Positions 52,000 through 62,451 of a stretch of 64,000 bases of DNA are shown one piece after another (within the stretch, counting starts at the first letter, position 1; each line of letters starts with the position of its first letter). Where the stretch lies: the NCBI GenBank assembly GCA_029263415.1, contig JAJCXN010000009.1, forward strand, positions 248,001 through 312,000, read 5' to 3'. Both the position numbers and the translations under genes were made by a program. Source of the DNA: Acidobacteriota bacterium. Its GTDB lineage: Bacteria; Acidobacteriota; Thermoanaerobaculia; Multivoradales; Multivoraceae. Below the pieces are notes generated by a model. It worked only from the letters and a program-made list of their open reading frames with translations. It searched no databases and was not told where the DNA came from.

Positions 52000-52803
52000 C
52001 TAGCTCGGTATCTCTCTGAGTTCGCGTTGGGCGAGAATCGCTTCGTCTGACCGCGGGTAGTCGGCCATCACTGAACGAAAAGCTGACGTGGCTTGTTCGC
52101 CATCACCCAGTTCCAAGTAGGCCTTGCCGGTGCGCAGAAGAGCGGACGGAACCTTCTCACTAGCGGGGTAGCGCTGCCGCACAGCAGTGAACTGACGAAT
52201 CGCACCGCGGAACTCCCGCAGGCTGAAGTGACACTCACCGGTCCAATACAGGGCGTTGTCGGCCGTTGCGCTGTCTGGGTTGCCTTCGAGGAAAGCAGTG
52301 AAGCCTCGTAGAGCCGTTCTGTAGTCTGCGTTTTGGAATGCTTGCAGGGCCGCCTCATACGCCTCCGATCCGGAGAGAGTCGGAGAGGGTGCAGGCTGCA
52401 CCGGGCGATCAACGATGGCCTGAAGCTCAACGATGGCACGCCTAAGAGCCGCCGTCTCTTCTGACACATCCTTGACCGCGATGGTGCTCTCTTGCACTGA
52501 AGCAGCGAGTGCCTCGATCCGACCCAGCAAGACTCTGAGGTCCGCTTCGGCGTCGGCACGGCCCTTCAGGAGTTGTTCCTGCGCTTGTGCCACCGTGGCT
52601 TCCAAGCGCTCCACCTGCCCACGGTCAGAGGACTGCTGCTGGATGGTTGCCAGCTGTTGTTGCATCACATCCAGCTGCTGCTGCATGGAGATGATCTCGG
52701 GTGGAGTAGTGGCGCACCCTGATCCGAGTACTGCGAGAGAGCCGAGTATTACGAGAGGCAGTAAACCAAAAAACGGAGACCGCTGCTGGCCTCCGTTTCC
52801 CAC
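52000..52803 (-). CDS. ybgF: Tol-Pal system protein YbgF/CpoB
   Basis: Periplasmic TPR protein that couples peptidoglycan synthesis with outer-membrane constriction. From GTG 52803 (267 aa) the N-terminus is a lipoprotein signal, FFGLLPLVILGSLAVL with lipobox GSGC at about residue 30; the longer frame from 52908 places 35 odd residues before it. A Gln-rich trimerising coiled coil (EIISMQQQLDVMQQQLATIQ) precedes the TPR part (EAYEAALQAFQNADYRTALRGF, DNALYWTGECHFSLREFRGAI, VPSALLRTGKAYLELGD). A lipidated YbgF is common outside enterobacteria. Last gene of the tol-pal set. Confidence 0.9.
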   Translation of the reverse strand: MGNGGQQRSPFFGLLPLVILGSLAVLGSGCATTPPEIISMQQQLDVMQQQLATIQQQSSDRGQVERLEATVAQAQEQLLKGRADAEADLRVLLGRIEALAASVQESTIAVKDVSEETAALRRAIVELQAIVDRPVQPAPSPTLSGSEAYEAALQAFQNADYRTALRGFTAFLEGNPDSATADNALYWTGECHFSLREFRGAIRQFTAVRQRYPASEKVPSALLRTGKAYLELGDGEQATSAFRSVMADYPRSDEAILAQRELREIPS

Positions 52804-52927
52804 GTTGCCTGGGTTCCCGCGCGAGGCGACGCCCGCGGGGCCCCCTGTGGGTGCCCCGGGACGGTCTTCTGCCTTGGCGTGGCTACTATCTACCCAGATT
52901 ACGACCACCGCCGACTGTCAACCGCTG

Positions 52928-53500
52928 CTAGTTGCGGCCGGTGAGGCGGAAGTACGCGCGACGGTTCTTGCCCCAGCAGGACTCGCTGCTCTCGGCGCAG
53001 GCACCACGCTCTTCGCCGTAGCTGATGGTCCGGATGCGGCTTGATGGCACACCGAGTTCGGTGACGTAGTCAAGAGCTGCGTTCGACCGGCGTTCGCCGA
53101 GAGCCAAGTTGTACTCACTGGTTCCACGCTCATCGCAGTGGCCCTCAATGGTGACGACAAACTTGTCGTTCTCTTTGAGGAACGCCGCGTTCTTCGCTAG
53201 CCGCTCGCGAGCAGCAGGAGAGAGTTCGGAGCGATCGAACTCGAAATACACAGTTCCGAGAAGACCGTTCTCTTCGGCATACTGCTGCGCGATCAGCAGG
53301 TCGTCATCCAGCGGGTCGATCACGGGGTCCTTCTCGGGAGTGGGCTCCGGACGGGTGACTTCCACAGGTTTCGGTGGCTCAGGTGTTACGACCGGCTCTG
53401 GCGCGGGCACGGGTGGTTCTGGCGGAACGGGCTTGTTGCAGGCAAAACTAAAAACCAACAATGCGGCGAGAACCGCGAACGGCAACCTACGGACAGACAT
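52928..53500 (-). CDS. pal: peptidoglycan-associated lipoprotein Pal
   Basis: Outer-membrane lipoprotein that binds peptidoglycan and TolB. Start at ATG 53500 (190 aa): AAGGAG lies 6 nt upstream, whereas ATG 53506 directly abuts it. Signal and lipobox LVFSFACNK, then a Pro/Glu/Val linker, then the OmpA-like domain: TVYFEFDRSELSPAARERL, IEGHCDERGTSEYNLALGERRS and the NR motif WGKNRRAYF. The domain carries extra Cys (GHCDERG, ACAESSESCW) that may pair, a feature also met in Acidobacteriota-like Pal proteins. The spacer to tolB is 279 bp. Confidence 0.95.
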   Translation of the reverse strand: MSVRRLPFAVLAALLVFSFACNKPVPPEPPVPAPEPVVTPEPPKPVEVTRPEPTPEKDPVIDPLDDDLLIAQQYAEENGLLGTVYFEFDRSELSPAARERLAKNAAFLKENDKFVVTIEGHCDERGTSEYNLALGERRSNAALDYVTELGVPSSRIRTISYGEERGACAESSESCWGKNRRAYFRLTGRN

Positions 53501-53682
53501 GCACATCTCCTTCGACCCTCACGGTCTCGTCTGAGGCCTTCGAGGTGGGGTTAGCTGGGAAGCTTCGCTTTGAGAAACTCAAGATCAAAGACTTGGCAAC
53601 GGATTCTGGGACTGACCGGTGCCGCTCATGAAAGCTCACTCTATCTTGCCAAGAATGACCGCACATTAGCAAAGGCCAGATT

Positions 53683-53695
53683 GCGGTTCAACCGC
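53683..53695. repeat. short palindrome in the tolB-pal spacer
   Basis: GCGGTT-C-AACCGC lies in the 279-bp gap between tolB and pal. With the flanking TTG/CCAA the arms extend imperfectly. It could weaken or restart transcription before pal; no firm promoter was found. Confidence 0.35.
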
Positions 53696-53779
53696 CAAGT
53701 CCATGAAAATCAAGGGATTATGGGCATTGTACCCTTGGACAGTGCGCTGTTTCAAGAACCGCATGCTCGGCTCATCGAA

Positions 53780-55153
53780 CTACTCATCGAAGTAGCCTGA
53801 CCAAGACGGCCCGAAGTTGCTACTCCCGTTGGTCAGCTGCGCCACGGGTTCTCCGTCGGCAGTCATGATGTAGATCTGCTTGCGACCGGAGCGATCCGAT
53901 TCGTAGGCGATAAAACGGCCATCTGGCGAGAACGTTGGCGCCTCGTGGCTTCCTGGCGCAGCGGTGAGGGTGGCCTGCTCACCCGTCTCAACATCCACTT
54001 TGACGATGTCGAAGCGCCGGCCGTCGCGAGTCCTCGACGCGTAGATGAGATATCGCGCGTCTGGATCCCAAGCAGCACCATCGTTGTACTTCGACTGGAA
54101 GCTGATTCGTCGGATGTTCTTGCCCTCTAGATCCATCACATAGATCTGCGGTGATCCATTGCGGCTTGAGGTGAAGGCAAGCTGGTTGCCCCGCGGCGAC
54201 CAGGCTGGGTTGGTGTCAATGCCGCCCGACCTAGTCAGGCGCTTGAGACCCGCGCCATCCCGATCAATCGTGAAAATCTCGAGGTTGCCGCGCAGCGAGC
54301 GCGCGAAGGCAATCCTGCGACCGTCTGGTGATGTGGTTGGGGAAAGTGCCTGGGCGGTCTCCTCGAGGATAGGGCTCTTGCGGCCAGTCTCTCGATCAAC
54401 CCAGTAGAGCGAGGCACCTTCGCCCGAGTAATAGGAGACGTAGGCAAGGCCCTCGCCGTTGGCTGCCCAGGCCGGCGAAAACGACAACGAACGATGGCCG
54501 CTCATCTTGCGTTGGCCGTAACCGTCGTAGTCCATGAGGTAGAGCTCCTTGATGCCGTCACCATCCCGATCGGAGGTAAAGGCCAACGAGGTGCGAGCAA
54601 TACCGCGGACTCCGGTCATATAGAGCACGATCTCGTCGCTCAAGGTGTGCGCCATCTGGCGCGCAAGCTCAGTACCGGCGACATAGCGTTTGCGGAGAAT
54701 GGCCTCGCGCGAACCCAGATCGTAGAGGCTGCCTTCGAGCACTAGGCGCGCTCCGTCGACCTTGGTCTCGACCAAGAGCACCATCTCGTTGCCGAGTGAG
54801 CGGTACTGCTCAAAGTCGTTGGCACGGTCACCGCTAAGGCGAAGACCAGCAAGTTCGCGCGGGCCCTGCAAGGAGAACACGCCGGTTAGGCGAAGGTCGT
54901 TGCGTAGGGTGGCGTCGAGTTCGTCGGCCGCACTGGCCAATTGGGGAGAGGCAGACACAGGCCGCCTGGGAGCGGGGTAGGCAAGGCGCATCTTGGCGCG
55001 CTGATTATCCTCGACTGTGATCTGGACGCGGCCTTCTGGAGGCAGCTGGGCCGGCGGCGGCTCGGTATCCTGAGCGCGACCGCTGTCGGGGAGACCCACA
55101 AGGCAAAGAGCGGCAAGCAGGAAAGGAAACACTGTTCTGGTAGACAACTTCAA
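53780..55153 (-). CDS. tolB: Tol-Pal system beta-propeller protein TolB
   Basis: Periplasmic protein of the Tol-Pal machine that binds Pal and TolA. 457 aa, TTG start, signal peptide VFPFLLAALCLVGLPDSGRA. The N-terminal alpha/beta domain (RLTGVFSLQGPRELAGL, LYDLGSREAILRKRYV) is followed by a six-bladed propeller with WD-like phrases: IARTSLAFTSDRDGDGIKELY, NPAWSPRGNQLAFTSSRNGS, APTFSPDGRFIAYESDRSGR. The C-terminus ends PSWSGYFDE. Length and order match the family. Confidence 0.95.
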   Translation of the reverse strand: MKLSTRTVFPFLLAALCLVGLPDSGRAQDTEPPPAQLPPEGRVQITVEDNQRAKMRLAYPAPRRPVSASPQLASAADELDATLRNDLRLTGVFSLQGPRELAGLRLSGDRANDFEQYRSLGNEMVLLVETKVDGARLVLEGSLYDLGSREAILRKRYVAGTELARQMAHTLSDEIVLYMTGVRGIARTSLAFTSDRDGDGIKELYLMDYDGYGQRKMSGHRSLSFSPAWAANGEGLAYVSYYSGEGASLYWVDRETGRKSPILEETAQALSPTTSPDGRRIAFARSLRGNLEIFTIDRDGAGLKRLTRSGGIDTNPAWSPRGNQLAFTSSRNGSPQIYVMDLEGKNIRRISFQSKYNDGAAWDPDARYLIYASRTRDGRRFDIVKVDVETGEQATLTAAPGSHEAPTFSPDGRFIAYESDRSGRKQIYIMTADGEPVAQLTNGSSNFGPSWSGYFDE

Positions 55154-55317
55154 GCGACAAGTACCTCGCGAGGACTTCTATGGGGTTTTTTGAGCGAGCG
55201 ATGGAGAAGAAGATCAAAAGGGGAGCTACGGATGGCCGACCGCTCCAAACCTAAGTCTAGTTATATCAAGACGTTAGAGTCATTGTAGCCACACGATCAA
55301 TGATGCTTTGCCTCGGG

Positions 55318-56088
55318 CTACGGAAGAAGCACGGTCACTCCAAGGCTCTGTTTGCGATAGGCGACTGGTAGCGGCGGCAGGGGAGATGCATCCTGGATGC
55401 CGCGAAGCCCAGCACGATCGTAGGACGGAATGCCAGAGGTCCGGACTAGTTCGACGTCGCTCACTGTTCCGTCACGGCCGATGCGGAAGTTGATCGCCAA
55501 ATCCATGCGTCGCTCGAGCCGAGGGCGCCGCCAGGCACGCCGGATCGCCTGGATCAGACTGCGGGTGTAGTAGTCGTACTTAAAGTCGGGATCATCAAAG
55601 CCTGCAACGGTGGTGTCCTGGACTTCGCCTTTGGAAGCAGCGGGCAGCTCCGGCTCTTCGGGTTCGGCGGGCACGGGATCGTCGACCTCTTCGTCCTCGT
55701 CGCTCGATTCCTCGGGAACCTCAACCGGCTCTGGTTCGGGCTTCGGCGGGTCCGGCTTCTTCTCCGGTTCCTTGTCCGCGACCAGCGGAATATCCTCTGG
55801 AACCTCGACTGGCTCGTCTGGGATCACCGGCTCCGGTTCGGGCTCGGGCGGCTTGGGTCGCCGGGTCTCAGGGCGAGGCTTCGGAGCCGGCGCTAGATCC
55901 GCTGCTGGAATCGATACGACTTCGACGTACTCGATCCGCGGCGGTTCAGACCGCAACAACCCGGGCACCAGAATCACCGCGATCAGTATCCCGACATGGA
56001 CAACTGCAGAGACACTGATAGCGATGCGCAGCGGCCGCTTACCAAACTGGCTTTGCCGCTGTGAGAGGAGTTCATTGACTTGGTTCAA
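55318..56088 (-). CDS. tolA: TolA/TonB-type energy transducer
   Basis: Cell-envelope-spanning protein that carries force from TolQR to the outer membrane. 256 aa, TTG start, 9 bp after tolR. One N-terminal helix (IAISVSAVVHVGILIAVIL) with the conserved Ser-His spacing, then a long Pro/Glu/Lys-rich periplasmic rod (residues about 55-165), then a TonB_C domain: SLIQAIRRAWRRPRLERR, INFRIGRDGTVSDVELVRTSGIPSYD. The rod is Pro-rich like TonB rather than the Ala/Lys helix of enteric TolA. The location between tolR and tolB supports the TolA role. Confidence 0.9.
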   Translation of the reverse strand: MNQVNELLSQRQSQFGKRPLRIAISVSAVVHVGILIAVILVPGLLRSEPPRIEYVEVVSIPAADLAPAPKPRPETRRPKPPEPEPEPVIPDEPVEVPEDIPLVADKEPEKKPDPPKPEPEPVEVPEESSDEDEEVDDPVPAEPEEPELPAASKGEVQDTTVAGFDDPDFKYDYYTRSLIQAIRRAWRRPRLERRMDLAINFRIGRDGTVSDVELVRTSGIPSYDRAGLRGIQDASPLPPLPVAYRKQSLGVTVLLP

Positions 56089-56097
56089 GTCTTCAGC

Positions 56098-56547
<450 letters not shown>

Positions 56548-56596
56548 TAGTTAGGGCCCCCGCGTTGATCGGCCGCGGCTGCTGCTGAAGCCGACA

Positions 56597-57328
56597 TTAA
56601 GTGAAGTTCCGCTCTGCCAGGTTGAGAAACTCGAGTCCGAAGTCCTCGAGCTCGGTTCGAATCGACTTGAGCTTGGCCGCAACTTGGTTGTAGCCAATGA
56701 GTGCGGGGATGGCGGCGACCAGCCCAGCCGCGGTGTTGACCAACGCCTCAGCAATACCCGGAGCAACTGCCACGATGGACGCGGTGCCCGCGGCTCCAAT
56801 GTCGCTGAACGCGAACATGATGCCCACGACCGTACCGAAGAGCCCGATGAACGGGGTTGCAGCCGCCGTAGTCGCCAGGAACGCCGTGGTTTTCGAAAGG
56901 CCCTGCAGTTCGACGCCGATCGCTCTGCGCAAACTCCGTTCAACACCGGTGAGCGATTTGATGCGATAGGCAACAGCGCGGGTCTCCATCGGGTCCTCCC
57001 CGCTTGGTTGTTGCGCCTTTACCTGCGCGTCAATCTCGATGTAGCCCGCCTGGAACAGGCCGACCAGCGGAGACGCGGCATATTGTTGAGTAACCGAGTT
57101 GATCTCCGAGAAGCGAGCGCTCTGGCGGAAGATCGTCAGGAACCTAGCGTTGTCTCTACTAACGCGCTTGAACTGTCGCCACTTGTTGAACATCACTGCC
57201 CAGGAACCGAGCGAGAAGAAAATGAGAATCGCGAAAACAAGCTTGGCGATGGGGCCAGCGTCGAGGAACAACGAGACGATGCTTCGTTGGCCGAGGGCTG
57301 CAGCTGGAGCTAAGAAGAGTGTGTTCAT
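56597..57328 (-). CDS. tolQ: TolQ/ExbB-type proton channel protein
   Basis: Three-helix inner-membrane stator of the Tol motor, 243 aa, ATG 57328. Helix 1 is IAKLVFAILIFFSLGSWAVMF, with cytoplasmic loop and helices 2 and 3 in LATTAAATPFIGLFGTVVGIMFAF and ALVNTAAGLVAAIPALIGYN. The Thr and Ala/Gly-rich channel residues and the PFIGLFGTVVGI hallmark are present. The first gene of the five-gene tol-pal run and 179 bp downstream of the methyltransferase gene. Confidence 0.95.
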   Translation of the reverse strand: MNTLFLAPAAALGQRSIVSLFLDAGPIAKLVFAILIFFSLGSWAVMFNKWRQFKRVSRDNARFLTIFRQSARFSEINSVTQQYAASPLVGLFQAGYIEIDAQVKAQQPSGEDPMETRAVAYRIKSLTGVERSLRRAIGVELQGLSKTTAFLATTAAATPFIGLFGTVVGIMFAFSDIGAAGTASIVAVAPGIAEALVNTAAGLVAAIPALIGYNQVAAKLKSIRTELEDFGLEFLNLAERNFT

Positions 57329-57507: not shown

Positions 57508-58419
57508 CTACCGGTTGTCTGTCCGATCGCTCGTGCGATCCGTAGTTAGGGCGGGGCCGCCGATCGCGTAGGTGAGGGGTGATCGTCGTTGGATCTCAAA
57601 CAACGCCACGGCAGCGGCGGTCGCAACGTTGAGGGACTCGATGTCGCCCTCCATAGGGATGGCAAGAGAAGAAGTGCATCGTCCAGCCACCTCTGAAGAC
57701 AACCCGTGAGCTTCTGAACCCACAGCGAGCACGCGCGGGGAAGCCACCGGCACATCGAACACGCTGCGGCCGCCGGCTTGCAGGCCGTACCAGTGTGGAG
57801 TTTCGCCTAGGATGGCCTCGATCTGATGGGTCAACTCTTCGCTGCCAATGCCGTCGAGGATGGTAAGTCGTAGGGCGCTTCCTGCTGATGCTCGCAAAGC
57901 TCGCGGGTGGCGCCAGCTCGCGGTTCCCGGGCCCAGCACCACCAGGTCAACACCAGTAGCCTCTGCGACGCGCAAGACCGCACCGACATTGCGTGGGTCG
58001 CGGAGTCGATCGAGGTAGAGAAGCGTGCTCCAACCGTCCTCGAGCGCTGACGCCAGCGTCCACTCAGGTGCAGCGACGATCGCCACCAGCCCGCGCGGAG
58101 AATCAGCATCCGCTAAAGCGTCGAGCAGCGACTCCTCGACAGCCAGTGGTGCGGTCGCGAAGCGGTCGAGTACCAGATGATCACTAGCAAGGAAGCGCTC
58201 GGTTGAAACGACCAATGGCATCGGTAGGCCAGCGTCGAGGGCTGCTTCAATGAGATTGGGACCTTCGAGTACCAAGAGTGAAGCGTCTGCAGCGATCTCG
58301 GTGCGTACCAAGTCTGCCACCAGCAGGGTTGCAGCTTTGCGCGTGGCCTGACCTTGGCCGCGCCCCGAAATGAGTGCTCGAAGCGCCTTGAGGCGTTGGT
58401 TTTGGGGGCTGACGATCAT
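57508..58419 (-). CDS. TrmH-family (SpoU) RNA 2'-O-methyltransferase
   Basis: Knotted SPOUT methyltransferase acting on rRNA or tRNA ribose. 303 aa, ATG 58419. A substrate-binding N-terminal domain ([31 protein letters not shown]) precedes the SPOUT core with motif 1 [20 protein letters not shown], motif 2 [14 protein letters not shown] and motif 3 [20 protein letters not shown]. The overall plan matches RlmB/TsnR-like enzymes; the exact target nucleotide cannot be read from sequence. The gene diverges from metK and may also feed transcription into tolQ. Confidence 0.9.
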
Positions 58420-59928: not shown

Positions 59929-62451
59929 CTAGGTCTCGATCCCCAAGAACAGGTACAGCGAGAGGCTGGCAAAGAGCACGTGGGGGCTCCATACCGCGAT
60001 CAGCGGTGGGAGCGATCCTGCCTGTCCGAGCGTCGTGAAAACCGCCACGATCGCGTAGAAGAAGATGCCTAAGCCGATCGCTAGGCCGACCCCATACAGA
60101 GCACCCTTGTTGCCGAGCCGGAAGGCGAAGGGTAGGGCAACGAAGGCCATGATCAGTGAGATCGCTGGCATTGCGAACTTGTTGAAGAGCTGAACCTCGA
60201 GCTGATGCACGTCTTGGCCGCCGGCAAATTGATCGTCGATATAAGCACGGAGCTCCGCGGGCGACATCTGACTGGGGGCCTTGATCTCCATGTCAAAAAA
60301 ATCAGGTGGCTCCGGCATTGTCAGTATGGCGCCGTCCTGCGGAGTGAAGAGGCCTGTTACGCCATTTTGGTTGAACTCTCGCCTCCATGCGCCAGCGAGC
60401 CGCCATTGATCGTCCCCGAGATGAACGGCCTCTTGGGCGTACATGCGAGCGTCGATCACATGGCTAACGGGATCCAGGTGGAACACGTGCAGACGTTGTA
60501 GGCGCTCAGCAATGCCGTCGTAGTTCTGGAAGTGGTAGATGTAGCCACCCTTGCCGTAGAGCCACTGGCGATCGGCACGTCGGAACGTGCGCTGCGCCGC
60601 CCGTTCGCCGCCCTTAATCTCGGCCTTGAACGCCTCGGCCTGGAGGTTGGTGTAGGGCAGCACATAACTTTCGAGCACGACGTTGCCACCACTGACAATC
60701 GCCGCAGCCACGATAGCTGGCACCGAGAGCCGGTAGAGACTCAGGCCCGCCGCCTTTGCGGCGGTGATCTCGTTGGTGCGTGAAAGGACGCCGAAACCAA
60801 TCAGGACGGTGAGCAATACCACCACTGGAGACAGGTCTCTAAAGGCCTGGAAAATCAGCGCTTGCAGGTACCCCTGGATCGTGTCCCAAGGGGTGTCGTT
60901 ACGCATGATGTCGTCGAGCAACTCGGTCAAATCAGCTAGTAGATAGATGGTGATTCCGCTCAAGACCACGACTACGAAAACCCGCAAGAACGTGCCCATC
61001 AGATAGCGATCGATCAGCGCTGGAAAATTCAGCGTCAGGCGGGGGAGTCGGATGACCAAGCCGTTCGCCTTCGGCGGAGGATGACTCTCAAGATCCAAGT
61101 CGTCCTCGTCGGCAGTAATCGTCCTAAACGAACCAGTGGCGAGATGATCCGTACCATAGGACCGCGAGTCTGCCTGTGATCGGGCGCGCTCCTTAGCCTG
61201 CTCTCGTCGACGGACAATCTTTTCCTTACGATCTTCGCGACGACGATGCTGACGGCGTTGGCGCAAACGGCTTCGTGTACGGACTCGTCCCCAGAGTCTT
61301 CGTCGAACCCAGGAGTCGATAGCGCTGAACAGCAAACTCTTGTCACCGTTCTTGCGCCAAAGCAGGAAGAGGCCTGCCACCAAGAAGACGAAGTTAGGTA
61401 GCCACATCGCAAGCCAGGGCTGCATCGTGCCCTCAAGAGCGGCGCCCTCGCCGTTGCTCTGCAGAACGTGGTAAACCAAGATGATCGGGATGGACATGGC
61501 GAAGCCGGATGAGCTGCCCCCGCGGCGATTGTTAAAGCCGAGTGGTACTGCGAACAGGCCGAAGACCAAGCAGGCAGCAGGAATCGCGAACTTCTGGTGA
61601 ATCTCCACATCGGCGACACGGCGTTCGCGCGCCTTCCGATTCGGGAGTTCTTGCCACTGCCTGAGCTCCGCAATGTTCATCGACTTAGGGGATCGGAACG
61701 CCAACTCTTGCGAACGGGCTTGGCGTTTCAGTAGGTCGTCGGCCAAGACCGCAGACAAGCGGTCCTCTCTGGCGACCAAGTACTGGGCGTCTGGATCGTT
61801 GAGGTCGACTGTGTGCCGGGTGGTCCCTTGGAAGTGAATCTGCATCCGGCTGCCGTCGCCGACCACCTGGACTCTTGCGTTTCGCGCCACTACAACCTCG
61901 TGCTCGCCAGTCGGCAGGGCGTCGGTGAAGAACACACGTTCCCAACCCTCATCGGTCACATCGAAGACGAACAGCGTCTTCTCAGATAAGCCGTCGTAGA
62001 AGACGCCAGCCTGGACCTGCTTATTGACGCTTCGAGCAAGGATCTCGCTGTATTTGGCCTCGGCCATAGAGTTGCCTTGCGGCATGGCAACCAACATCAG
62101 CCAGCCTGTCAGAAGCGTGGCAACCGTCGAGAACAGCATGACTGGCCGGTACAACGCAAAAAGGCTGATCCCGGAAGCTCGCATGGCGACAAGTTCGCTG
62201 TCCGACGAGAGTCGCCCGATTGCGATCAGCACGCCGAACAGCAAGGCCATTGGAATCGTCAGGACCAGAATGTTCGGCAGGTTGAGCGCCAGCACCTGCA
62301 GCATGGTCGCCGCTGGCACGTCGCGCTGGATGATCATCTCGGCCAACCGGAACATCAGGTTGATTAAGAGCATGAACGTGAAGACCAGCACGCCGAGGGC
62401 GAATGGCGAAAAACATTCGCGAAGGACATAGCGGTCGAGCAGGCGGAACAT
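59929..62451 (-). CDS. LptF-LptG fusion, LPS export permease
   Basis: 840-aa inner-membrane protein that joins both permease subunits of the LPS extractor in one chain. The N-terminal half (about 1-395) is LptF-like: LLDRYVLRECFSPFALGVL, LVAMRASGISLFALYRP, and VADVEIHQKFAIPAACLVFGLFAVPLGF. The C-terminal half (about 475-840) is LptG-like: LIDRYLMGTFLRVFVVVVLSG, ILTDLTE-type helix, TNEITAAKAAGLSLYRLSVP, and NKFAMPAISLIMAFVALPFAF. Each half has the expected six helices and a periplasmic jellyroll. They are linked by a very basic, then acidic, cytoplasmic stretch of about 80 residues. No stop or frameshift is seen between them. LptB, LptC and LptA are not in the window. Confidence 0.9.
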   Translation of the reverse strand: MFRLLDRYVLRECFSPFALGVLVFTFMLLINLMFRLAEMIIQRDVPAATMLQVLALNLPNILVLTIPMALLFGVLIAIGRLSSDSELVAMRASGISLFALYRPVMLFSTVATLLTGWLMLVAMPQGNSMAEAKYSEILARSVNKQVQAGVFYDGLSEKTLFVFDVTDEGWERVFFTDALPTGEHEVVVARNARVQVVGDGSRMQIHFQGTTRHTVDLNDPDAQYLVAREDRLSAVLADDLLKRQARSQELAFRSPKSMNIAELRQWQELPNRKARERRVADVEIHQKFAIPAACLVFGLFAVPLGFNNRRGGSSSGFAMSIPIILVYHVLQSNGEGAALEGTMQPWLAMWLPNFVFLVAGLFLLWRKNGDKSLLFSAIDSWVRRRLWGRVRTRSRLRQRRQHRRREDRKEKIVRRREQAKERARSQADSRSYGTDHLATGSFRTITADEDDLDLESHPPPKANGLVIRLPRLTLNFPALIDRYLMGTFLRVFVVVVLSGITIYLLADLTELLDDIMRNDTPWDTIQGYLQALIFQAFRDLSPVVVLLTVLIGFGVLSRTNEITAAKAAGLSLYRLSVPAIVAAAIVSGGNVVLESYVLPYTNLQAEAFKAEIKGGERAAQRTFRRADRQWLYGKGGYIYHFQNYDGIAERLQRLHVFHLDPVSHVIDARMYAQEAVHLGDDQWRLAGAWRREFNQNGVTGLFTPQDGAILTMPEPPDFFDMEIKAPSQMSPAELRAYIDDQFAGGQDVHQLEVQLFNKFAMPAISLIMAFVALPFAFRLGNKGALYGVGLAIGLGIFFYAIVAVFTTLGQAGSLPPLIAVWSPHVLFASLSLYLFLGIET

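Follow-up and report, generated by a model that had tools for sequence, protein, structure and literature searches.

Introduction

The closest described systems are the LptB2FG(C) exporters of E. coli, Vibrio, Enterobacter and Acinetobacter (PDB 6mhu, 6mjp, 6mit, 8frl), which contain the same two permease families as the locus analysed here, in the same F-then-G order. Six hydrophobic segments and a jellyroll in each half, together with conserved coupling glutamates, are common to those exporters and to this locus. There, LptF and LptG are two chains, whereas here a single chain carries both, joined by a linker that spans 29-103 residues among 97 relatives. Among ABC transporters, the FhuB-type importers also have a natural transmembrane dimer made of a single chain, which carries both membrane halves; these proteins import siderophores and have a different fold. 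In the diderm Firmicutes, a passage of PMC5007114 describes a single LptF/G homologue, encoded in a cluster of four genes. Judged by that passage, one gene supplies the permease in both cases, but the gene described here encodes two distinct halves.

For the phylum itself, an excerpt of the survey PMC8871954 calls lptF and lptG ‘apparently lacking in Acidobacteria’; the survey had chosen its profile hits partly by length and profile coverage. A passage of PMC8787282 reports an LptF/LptG permease in an acidobacterium and is itself silent on fusion, and an excerpt of PMC7989815 mentions lptFG genes in soil families. Among the matches listed in the open-access literature, none was found to describe a fusion of LptF with LptG or of LptC with LptA in Acidobacteria.

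The window, that is, the whole stretch of 64,000 nucleotides analysed, lies on contig G000:C9 of a 6.9 Mb assembly that is 99.2% complete and rated 0.31% contaminated.

Results

One reading frame encodes both permease halves

The lptFG gene runs on the minus strand of the window from 62451 to 59929, stop included, with 840 codons and an ATG start, and holds both LptF and LptG in full. Pfam PF03739 (LptF_LptG) matches the 840-aa protein in two stretches. By the NCBIfam equivalog models, the LptF half (residues 4-366) scores 302.5 bits against TIGR04407 (cut-off 230; model positions 1-347 of 347), and the LptG half (residues 480-836) scores 348.7 bits against TIGR04408 (cut-off 240; model positions 2-349 of 351). 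Both models are matched by 17/17 members of alignment A1 at E values up to 1e-10; these members were judged by E value, the curated bit cut-offs being applied to the window protein. The first-pass annotation had described one 840-residue frame with both LPS permease halves, which is borne out by scores above both cut-offs, and the protein is confirmed as a natural LptF-LptG fusion. Its features, in window coordinates, are as follows.

59929..62451, minus strand: lptFG, single-chain LPS export permease, 840 aa (open reading frame, Pfam, NCBIfam, conserved single frame across the phylum).
61354..62442, minus strand: LptF half, residues 4-366, six hydrophobic segments and a periplasmic beta-jellyroll (TIGR04407, hydropathy, AlphaFold2 with VIA-align).
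62176..62196, minus strand: LptF coupling helix, residues 86-92, with E86 equivalent to E. coli LptF E84 (alignment column, model helix, a passage of PMC5082905).
61033..61341, minus strand: linker, residues 371-473, presumed cytoplasmic (junction profiles, charge, hydropathy).
61168..61335, minus strand: basic part of the linker, residues 373-428, one long predicted helix (charge blocks, AlphaFold2).
61087..61110, minus strand: acidic run of the linker, residues 448-455, inside a low-confidence stretch at 446-464 (charge, AlphaFold2).
59944..61014, minus strand: LptG half, residues 480-836 (TIGR04408, structural match to 6mjp_G).
60751..60771, minus strand: LptG coupling helix, residues 561-567, with E561 equivalent to E. 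coli LptG E88 (alignment column, model helix).

ParB- and ParA-like frames, named by eye, lie upstream of lptFG on the same strand, and metK lies downstream on the opposite strand. Inside the window, no lptB or lptC adjoins the gene. A Tol-Pal-like cluster occupies 52000-57328 on the minus strand, with TolQ-, TolR-, TolB-, Pal- and YbgF-like frames (named by eye) and a TonB_2-domain protein; a methyltransferase-like frame (57508-58419) and metK fill the space between this cluster and lptFG.

Predicted fold and coupling residues

The AlphaFold2 model, built with 65 aligned sequences, has a pLDDT of 87 and a pTM of 0.80, the latter value suggesting that the two halves are placed together. In VIA-align comparisons, residues 3-380 match LptF chains (9dok_F, Z 26.4, rmsd 4.1 over 350 residues; 8frn_F, Z 26.7, rmsd 4.4 over 287 residues), and residues 476-839 match LptG (6mjp_G, Z 27.9, rmsd 4.5 over 353 residues). 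By structural match and hydropathy, each half consists of a six-helix membrane domain and a periplasmic jellyroll, the six segments per half being our own grouping of hydropathy peaks. Between the halves, the linker is drawn as one long helix over residues 373-428. Its pLDDT is 59 at 371-380, 77-93 over 381-420 and 74 at 421-430, and lies below 50 over most of 431-464.

A passage of PMC5082905 describes E. coli LptF E84 and LptG E88 as the residues that couple to LptB. The corresponding coupling-helix glutamate is present in 20/20 F halves and 20/20 G halves sampled, and also in three known LptF and three known LptG proteins (23/23 F rows and 23/23 G rows).

The linker and its constraint in a sister genus

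The junction was compared over a set of 97 distinct proteins, from which duplicates and rows with a profile match short of the junction on either side had been removed. Profiles place 103 residues between the conserved halves of the window protein, the longest linker of the 97 (range 29-103, median 59), and in the AlphaFold2 model about 110 residues separate the last membrane helix of LptF (end 367) from the first of LptG (start 479). Residues 382-426 hold 22 K/R and 5 D/E, residues 442-456 hold 1 K/R and 6 D/E, and the net charge of the linker is +14. The joint had earlier been given as about 80 residues, first basic and then acidic; the order of the charges stands, but the length has to be corrected to the two values above. 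A positive net charge is found in 94 of the 97 distinct junctions, with three at zero and none negative, and an acidic run (at least five D/E in nine residues) occurs in 3/97 linkers, including that of the window. The cytoplasmic placement proposed before agrees with the six hydrophobic segments per half and with the model, the side itself being taken from Lpt topology. An amphipathic linker helix in the window protein was considered and rejected (1875/2000 shuffles as high). The helical moment in the linkers of relatives reaches 0.65, with a median of 0.4 (n=97, values with no shuffle control).

In 14 loci of a sister genus, the linker has a pS of 0.287, a pN of 0.085 and a dN/dS of 0.25, from pairwise comparisons that are not independent, and the halves of the same loci have dN/dS values of 0.075 and 0.073. 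The sister-genus linker is translated and constrained, though less so than the halves.

An internal start or a cleavage within the linker would give two working proteins, as in E. coli. In keeping with such an arrangement, the linker is long, is modelled with low confidence at 431-464 and drifts faster than the halves, and some start codon (ATG, GTG or TTG) lies within -40..+12 codons of LptG in 92/97 junctions. In the window linker, a TTG stands 22 codons ahead of the LptG profile start, with GAGG five bases upstream. Against it, ATG is found in that interval in only 43/97 junctions, a start codon follows a strong Shine-Dalgarno-like motif in 3/97 (by a motif list without plain GAGG), and the segment preceding LptG is conserved as protein in most A1 alignment rows. 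An internal start for a separate LptG had been raised by the first-pass annotation as a result that would count against the fusion, and across the 97 junctions no conserved site of this kind exists. Two separate working proteins are thus unlikely, and a single-chain product is the preferred reading, although the species of the window may make a minor separate LptG from the linker TTG.

Other Lpt components and the LPS pathway

The lptB gene (TIGR04406, 367.8 bits, cut-off 240) lies at G000:C9:318885-319595, 7 kb past the end of the window; it shares contig and strand with lptFG and stands about 8.4 kb upstream of it. It is followed on its strand by the sigma-54 (rpoN) and rapZ genes (L135:6016-9686), an lptB-rpoN-rapZ neighbourhood partly common to Proteobacteria.

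Just upstream of lptB, a 750-aa protein (G000:C9:319731-321980, minus strand; L135:9729-11981) combines an LptC-like N-terminus with an LptA C-terminus. Its Pfam scores are 46.9 bits for PF03968 (cut-off 20.4) and 19.4 bits for PF06835 (cut-off 21), and its NCBIfam scores are 52.2 bits for TIGR03002 LptA (cut-off 71.7) and 29.6 bits for TIGR04409 LptC (cut-off 38); its relatives L159 and L160 score above the cut-offs of the two NCBIfam models. A profile search against solved structures places LptA at the end of the chain (E 5.8e-13) and LptC at its start (E 7.9e-5), and the approximately 450 residues between the two matches carry no family assignment. Both PF06835 and PF03968 are found, at E values up to 0.01, in 18/18 members of set A2, which comprises the 750-aa protein and 17 relatives picked from 30 loci. 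The protein is matched in 57/60 near genomes, its own included, and the LptC-LptA profile matches 79/99 genomes across the phylum, the genomes of family f38 being without a match. The genome may also encode a separate LptA elsewhere; the family search of this genome was not exhaustive, in that PF03968 missed the LptA domain on C9, which hmmscan found at 3.7e-12.

Further along the pathway, the genome encodes an LptD-like protein of 781 aa on C46 (best LptD model NF002997, E 2.3e-44, with 151.7 bits below the cut-off of 683), LpxC (267.9 bits, cut-off 187.25) and a WaaA-type glycosyltransferase domain (PF04413, 171.3 bits, cut-off 23.9). These bear on the cargo, since a family name alone is no proof of it, and a passage of PMC10353723 describes an Lpt-like system in Borrelia, an organism that lacks LPS. 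With LpxC, the WaaA-type Kdo transferase domain and the LptD-like protein in the same genome, an exporter that carries some other glycolipid or lipid instead is quite improbable. LPS would be the cargo of the single-chain permease.

A single frame across the phylum

The window represents one assembly, and an assembly error or a read-through, with the stop between lptF and lptG lost by mistake, was considered as a source of the frame. The gene was followed through 149 Acidobacteriota genomes, its own included, drawn evenly from the phylum and searched with a profile of the fused protein. The profile matches 146/149 genomes. A frame of at least 700 aa is present in 141 of the 146, and in the other five (G150, G181, G189, G191, G223) the frame reaches a contig end. 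Three genomes (G125, G170, G180) gave no match in either profile search. Among the matches listed for the 149 genomes, none was seen with separate genes alone. G146 has an 857-aa frame, of which the first half alone is among the matches listed, and G222 has a 743-aa frame in which the profile match stops at 723 of 788. Some genomes carry additional frames: one-half frames of 362 and 495 aa occur besides the fused frame at G109:C48:17344-18408 and G215:C53:486-1604, and G112 holds two full-length fused copies, on C134 and C163 (frames of 781 and 783 aa).

Within the same family, order and class, PF03739 is found in 98/98 near genomes, its own included, and 97 of these lie above the cut-off. The match in G054 is weak, and G054, G066, G069 and G070 show a single match. 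Split genes in the divergent families f38, f36 and f30, where rows are weak or partial, were considered and rejected; a follow-up profile search returned frames of 737-908 aa. In family f38 the second half matches weakly.

At the level of loci, which overlap and repeat and some of which carry other genes, both halves share one frame in 133/157. Thirteen frames are classed as ‘other’. They comprise the gene pair on contig C21 (see below), halves cut by a contig or region end (L108, L135, L137, L138, L142, L148) and divergent f36/f38 proteins with a weak second half (L147, L154-L156). The best 80 of 365 relatives come from Acidobacteria groups, with a few labelled ‘uncultured bacterium’, a result that the query and the ranking favour. 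Matches to plasmids number 28 records, 27 of which cover less than half of the query; one Sphingomonas record contains two separately annotated genes.

Chance or misassembly is excluded in practice, because the halves share one frame in so many loci and the 97 distinct junctions are complete. The linkers also stay in frame over their whole range of lengths, and purifying selection acts on that of the sister genus; a stop lost by mistake is accordingly a highly improbable source of the frame. The single-chain LptF-LptG is nearly universal among the acidobacterial genomes examined. What had been annotated as one unusual gene is instead a trait of the phylum, and the fusion holds across the lineage.

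Origin of the fusion

In a 46-row tree of the halves that also includes proteins of E. coli, Sphingomonas and C21, all F halves fall into one clade (support 99/99) and all G halves into another (100/98); the tree takes in three outside species only, and the divergent families f38 and f30 are left out. The F clade is on the same side as known LptF, and the G clade on that of known LptG. In E. coli, lptF and lptG stand in the same F-then-G order and overlap by one base. A single fusion of an lptF-lptG pair before the sampled Acidobacteriota diverged would be the simplest reading. A recent tandem duplication that became fused, in place of LptF plus LptG, has negligible probability, for the two halves do belong to one Pfam family but each groups with its own known counterpart in the tree and matches its own equivalog model.

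On the 16 kb contig C21 (G000:C21:1-16075, L035), the same assembly contains lptF and lptG as separate genes (359 aa and 353 aa), together with others that by eye are ispA-, dxs- and folE2-like. GC content is 46.6% in C21 and 59.8% in the window, and the tetranucleotide correlation between them is -0.05, against 0.99 among quarters of the window. Because its GC and tetranucleotide profile differ from those of the window, C21 is probably contamination, and its gene pair was set aside as a second exporter; C21 may also be a foreign insert, which would look alike.

Discussion

The acidobacterial protein is very probably the permease of an ordinary LptB2FG LPS exporter, in which the whole transmembrane heterodimer is one polypeptide, ancestral to the phylum, with a slack linker and pairing in cis. 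LptF and LptG are described as separate polypeptides, and the protein is therefore not the standard pair; it is not thereby barred from functioning like one. The two halves would fold together into a pseudo-heterodimer. Each half would offer one coupling helix to one subunit of the LptB dimer, and the paired halves would extract LPS as in E. coli. The joint would connect the end of LptF helix 6 with the start of LptG helix 1, both on the cytoplasmic side. In E. coli, according to a passage of PMC10094684, the gate by which LPS and the LptC helix enter lies between helix 5 of LptF and helix 1 of LptG, and by analogy the joint would stand beside it.

On the cytoplasmic side, the linker would be a slack tether: it would guarantee that the halves are made 1:1 and favour their pairing in cis, leaving the gate unbraced. 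The 1:1 dosage proposed by the first-pass annotation follows from the fusion. The further proposal, that the fusion fixes the orientation of the heterodimer around LptC, is not supported as worded: LptF and LptG differ from each other in any case, and a tether of such varied length is too slack to impose gate geometry. A variable and slack linker would therefore set stoichiometry rather than gate geometry, and the tether could at most prevent wrong pairing. The annotation had also proposed that the basic linker could touch LptB or the anionic lipid, a contact for which the evidence offers no support.

The fusion probably explains the absence of lptF and lptG reported in the excerpt of PMC8871954, since an 840-aa double protein could fail criteria of length and coverage. 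Surveys such as this one inform the discussion of how the outer membrane originated. For work on transporters, a natural single-chain LptFG also allows each half to be mutated on its own while the stoichiometry stays fixed.

The periplasmic side may have been joined in the same manner. The chances appear evenly balanced that the phylum possesses a consolidated ancestral Lpt machine, in which the permease (LptF-LptG) and the periplasmic arm (LptC...LptA, approximately 650-860 aa) are each one chain. The organisation of LptA in the bridge is called still unknown in a passage of PMC10094684, and if the LptC-LptA chain forms a continuous bridge, this question becomes testable. If the consolidated machine is real, the gene would determine how many jellyrolls the arm contains, and with that how long it is, in place of the LptA oligomerisation supposed for E. 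coli.
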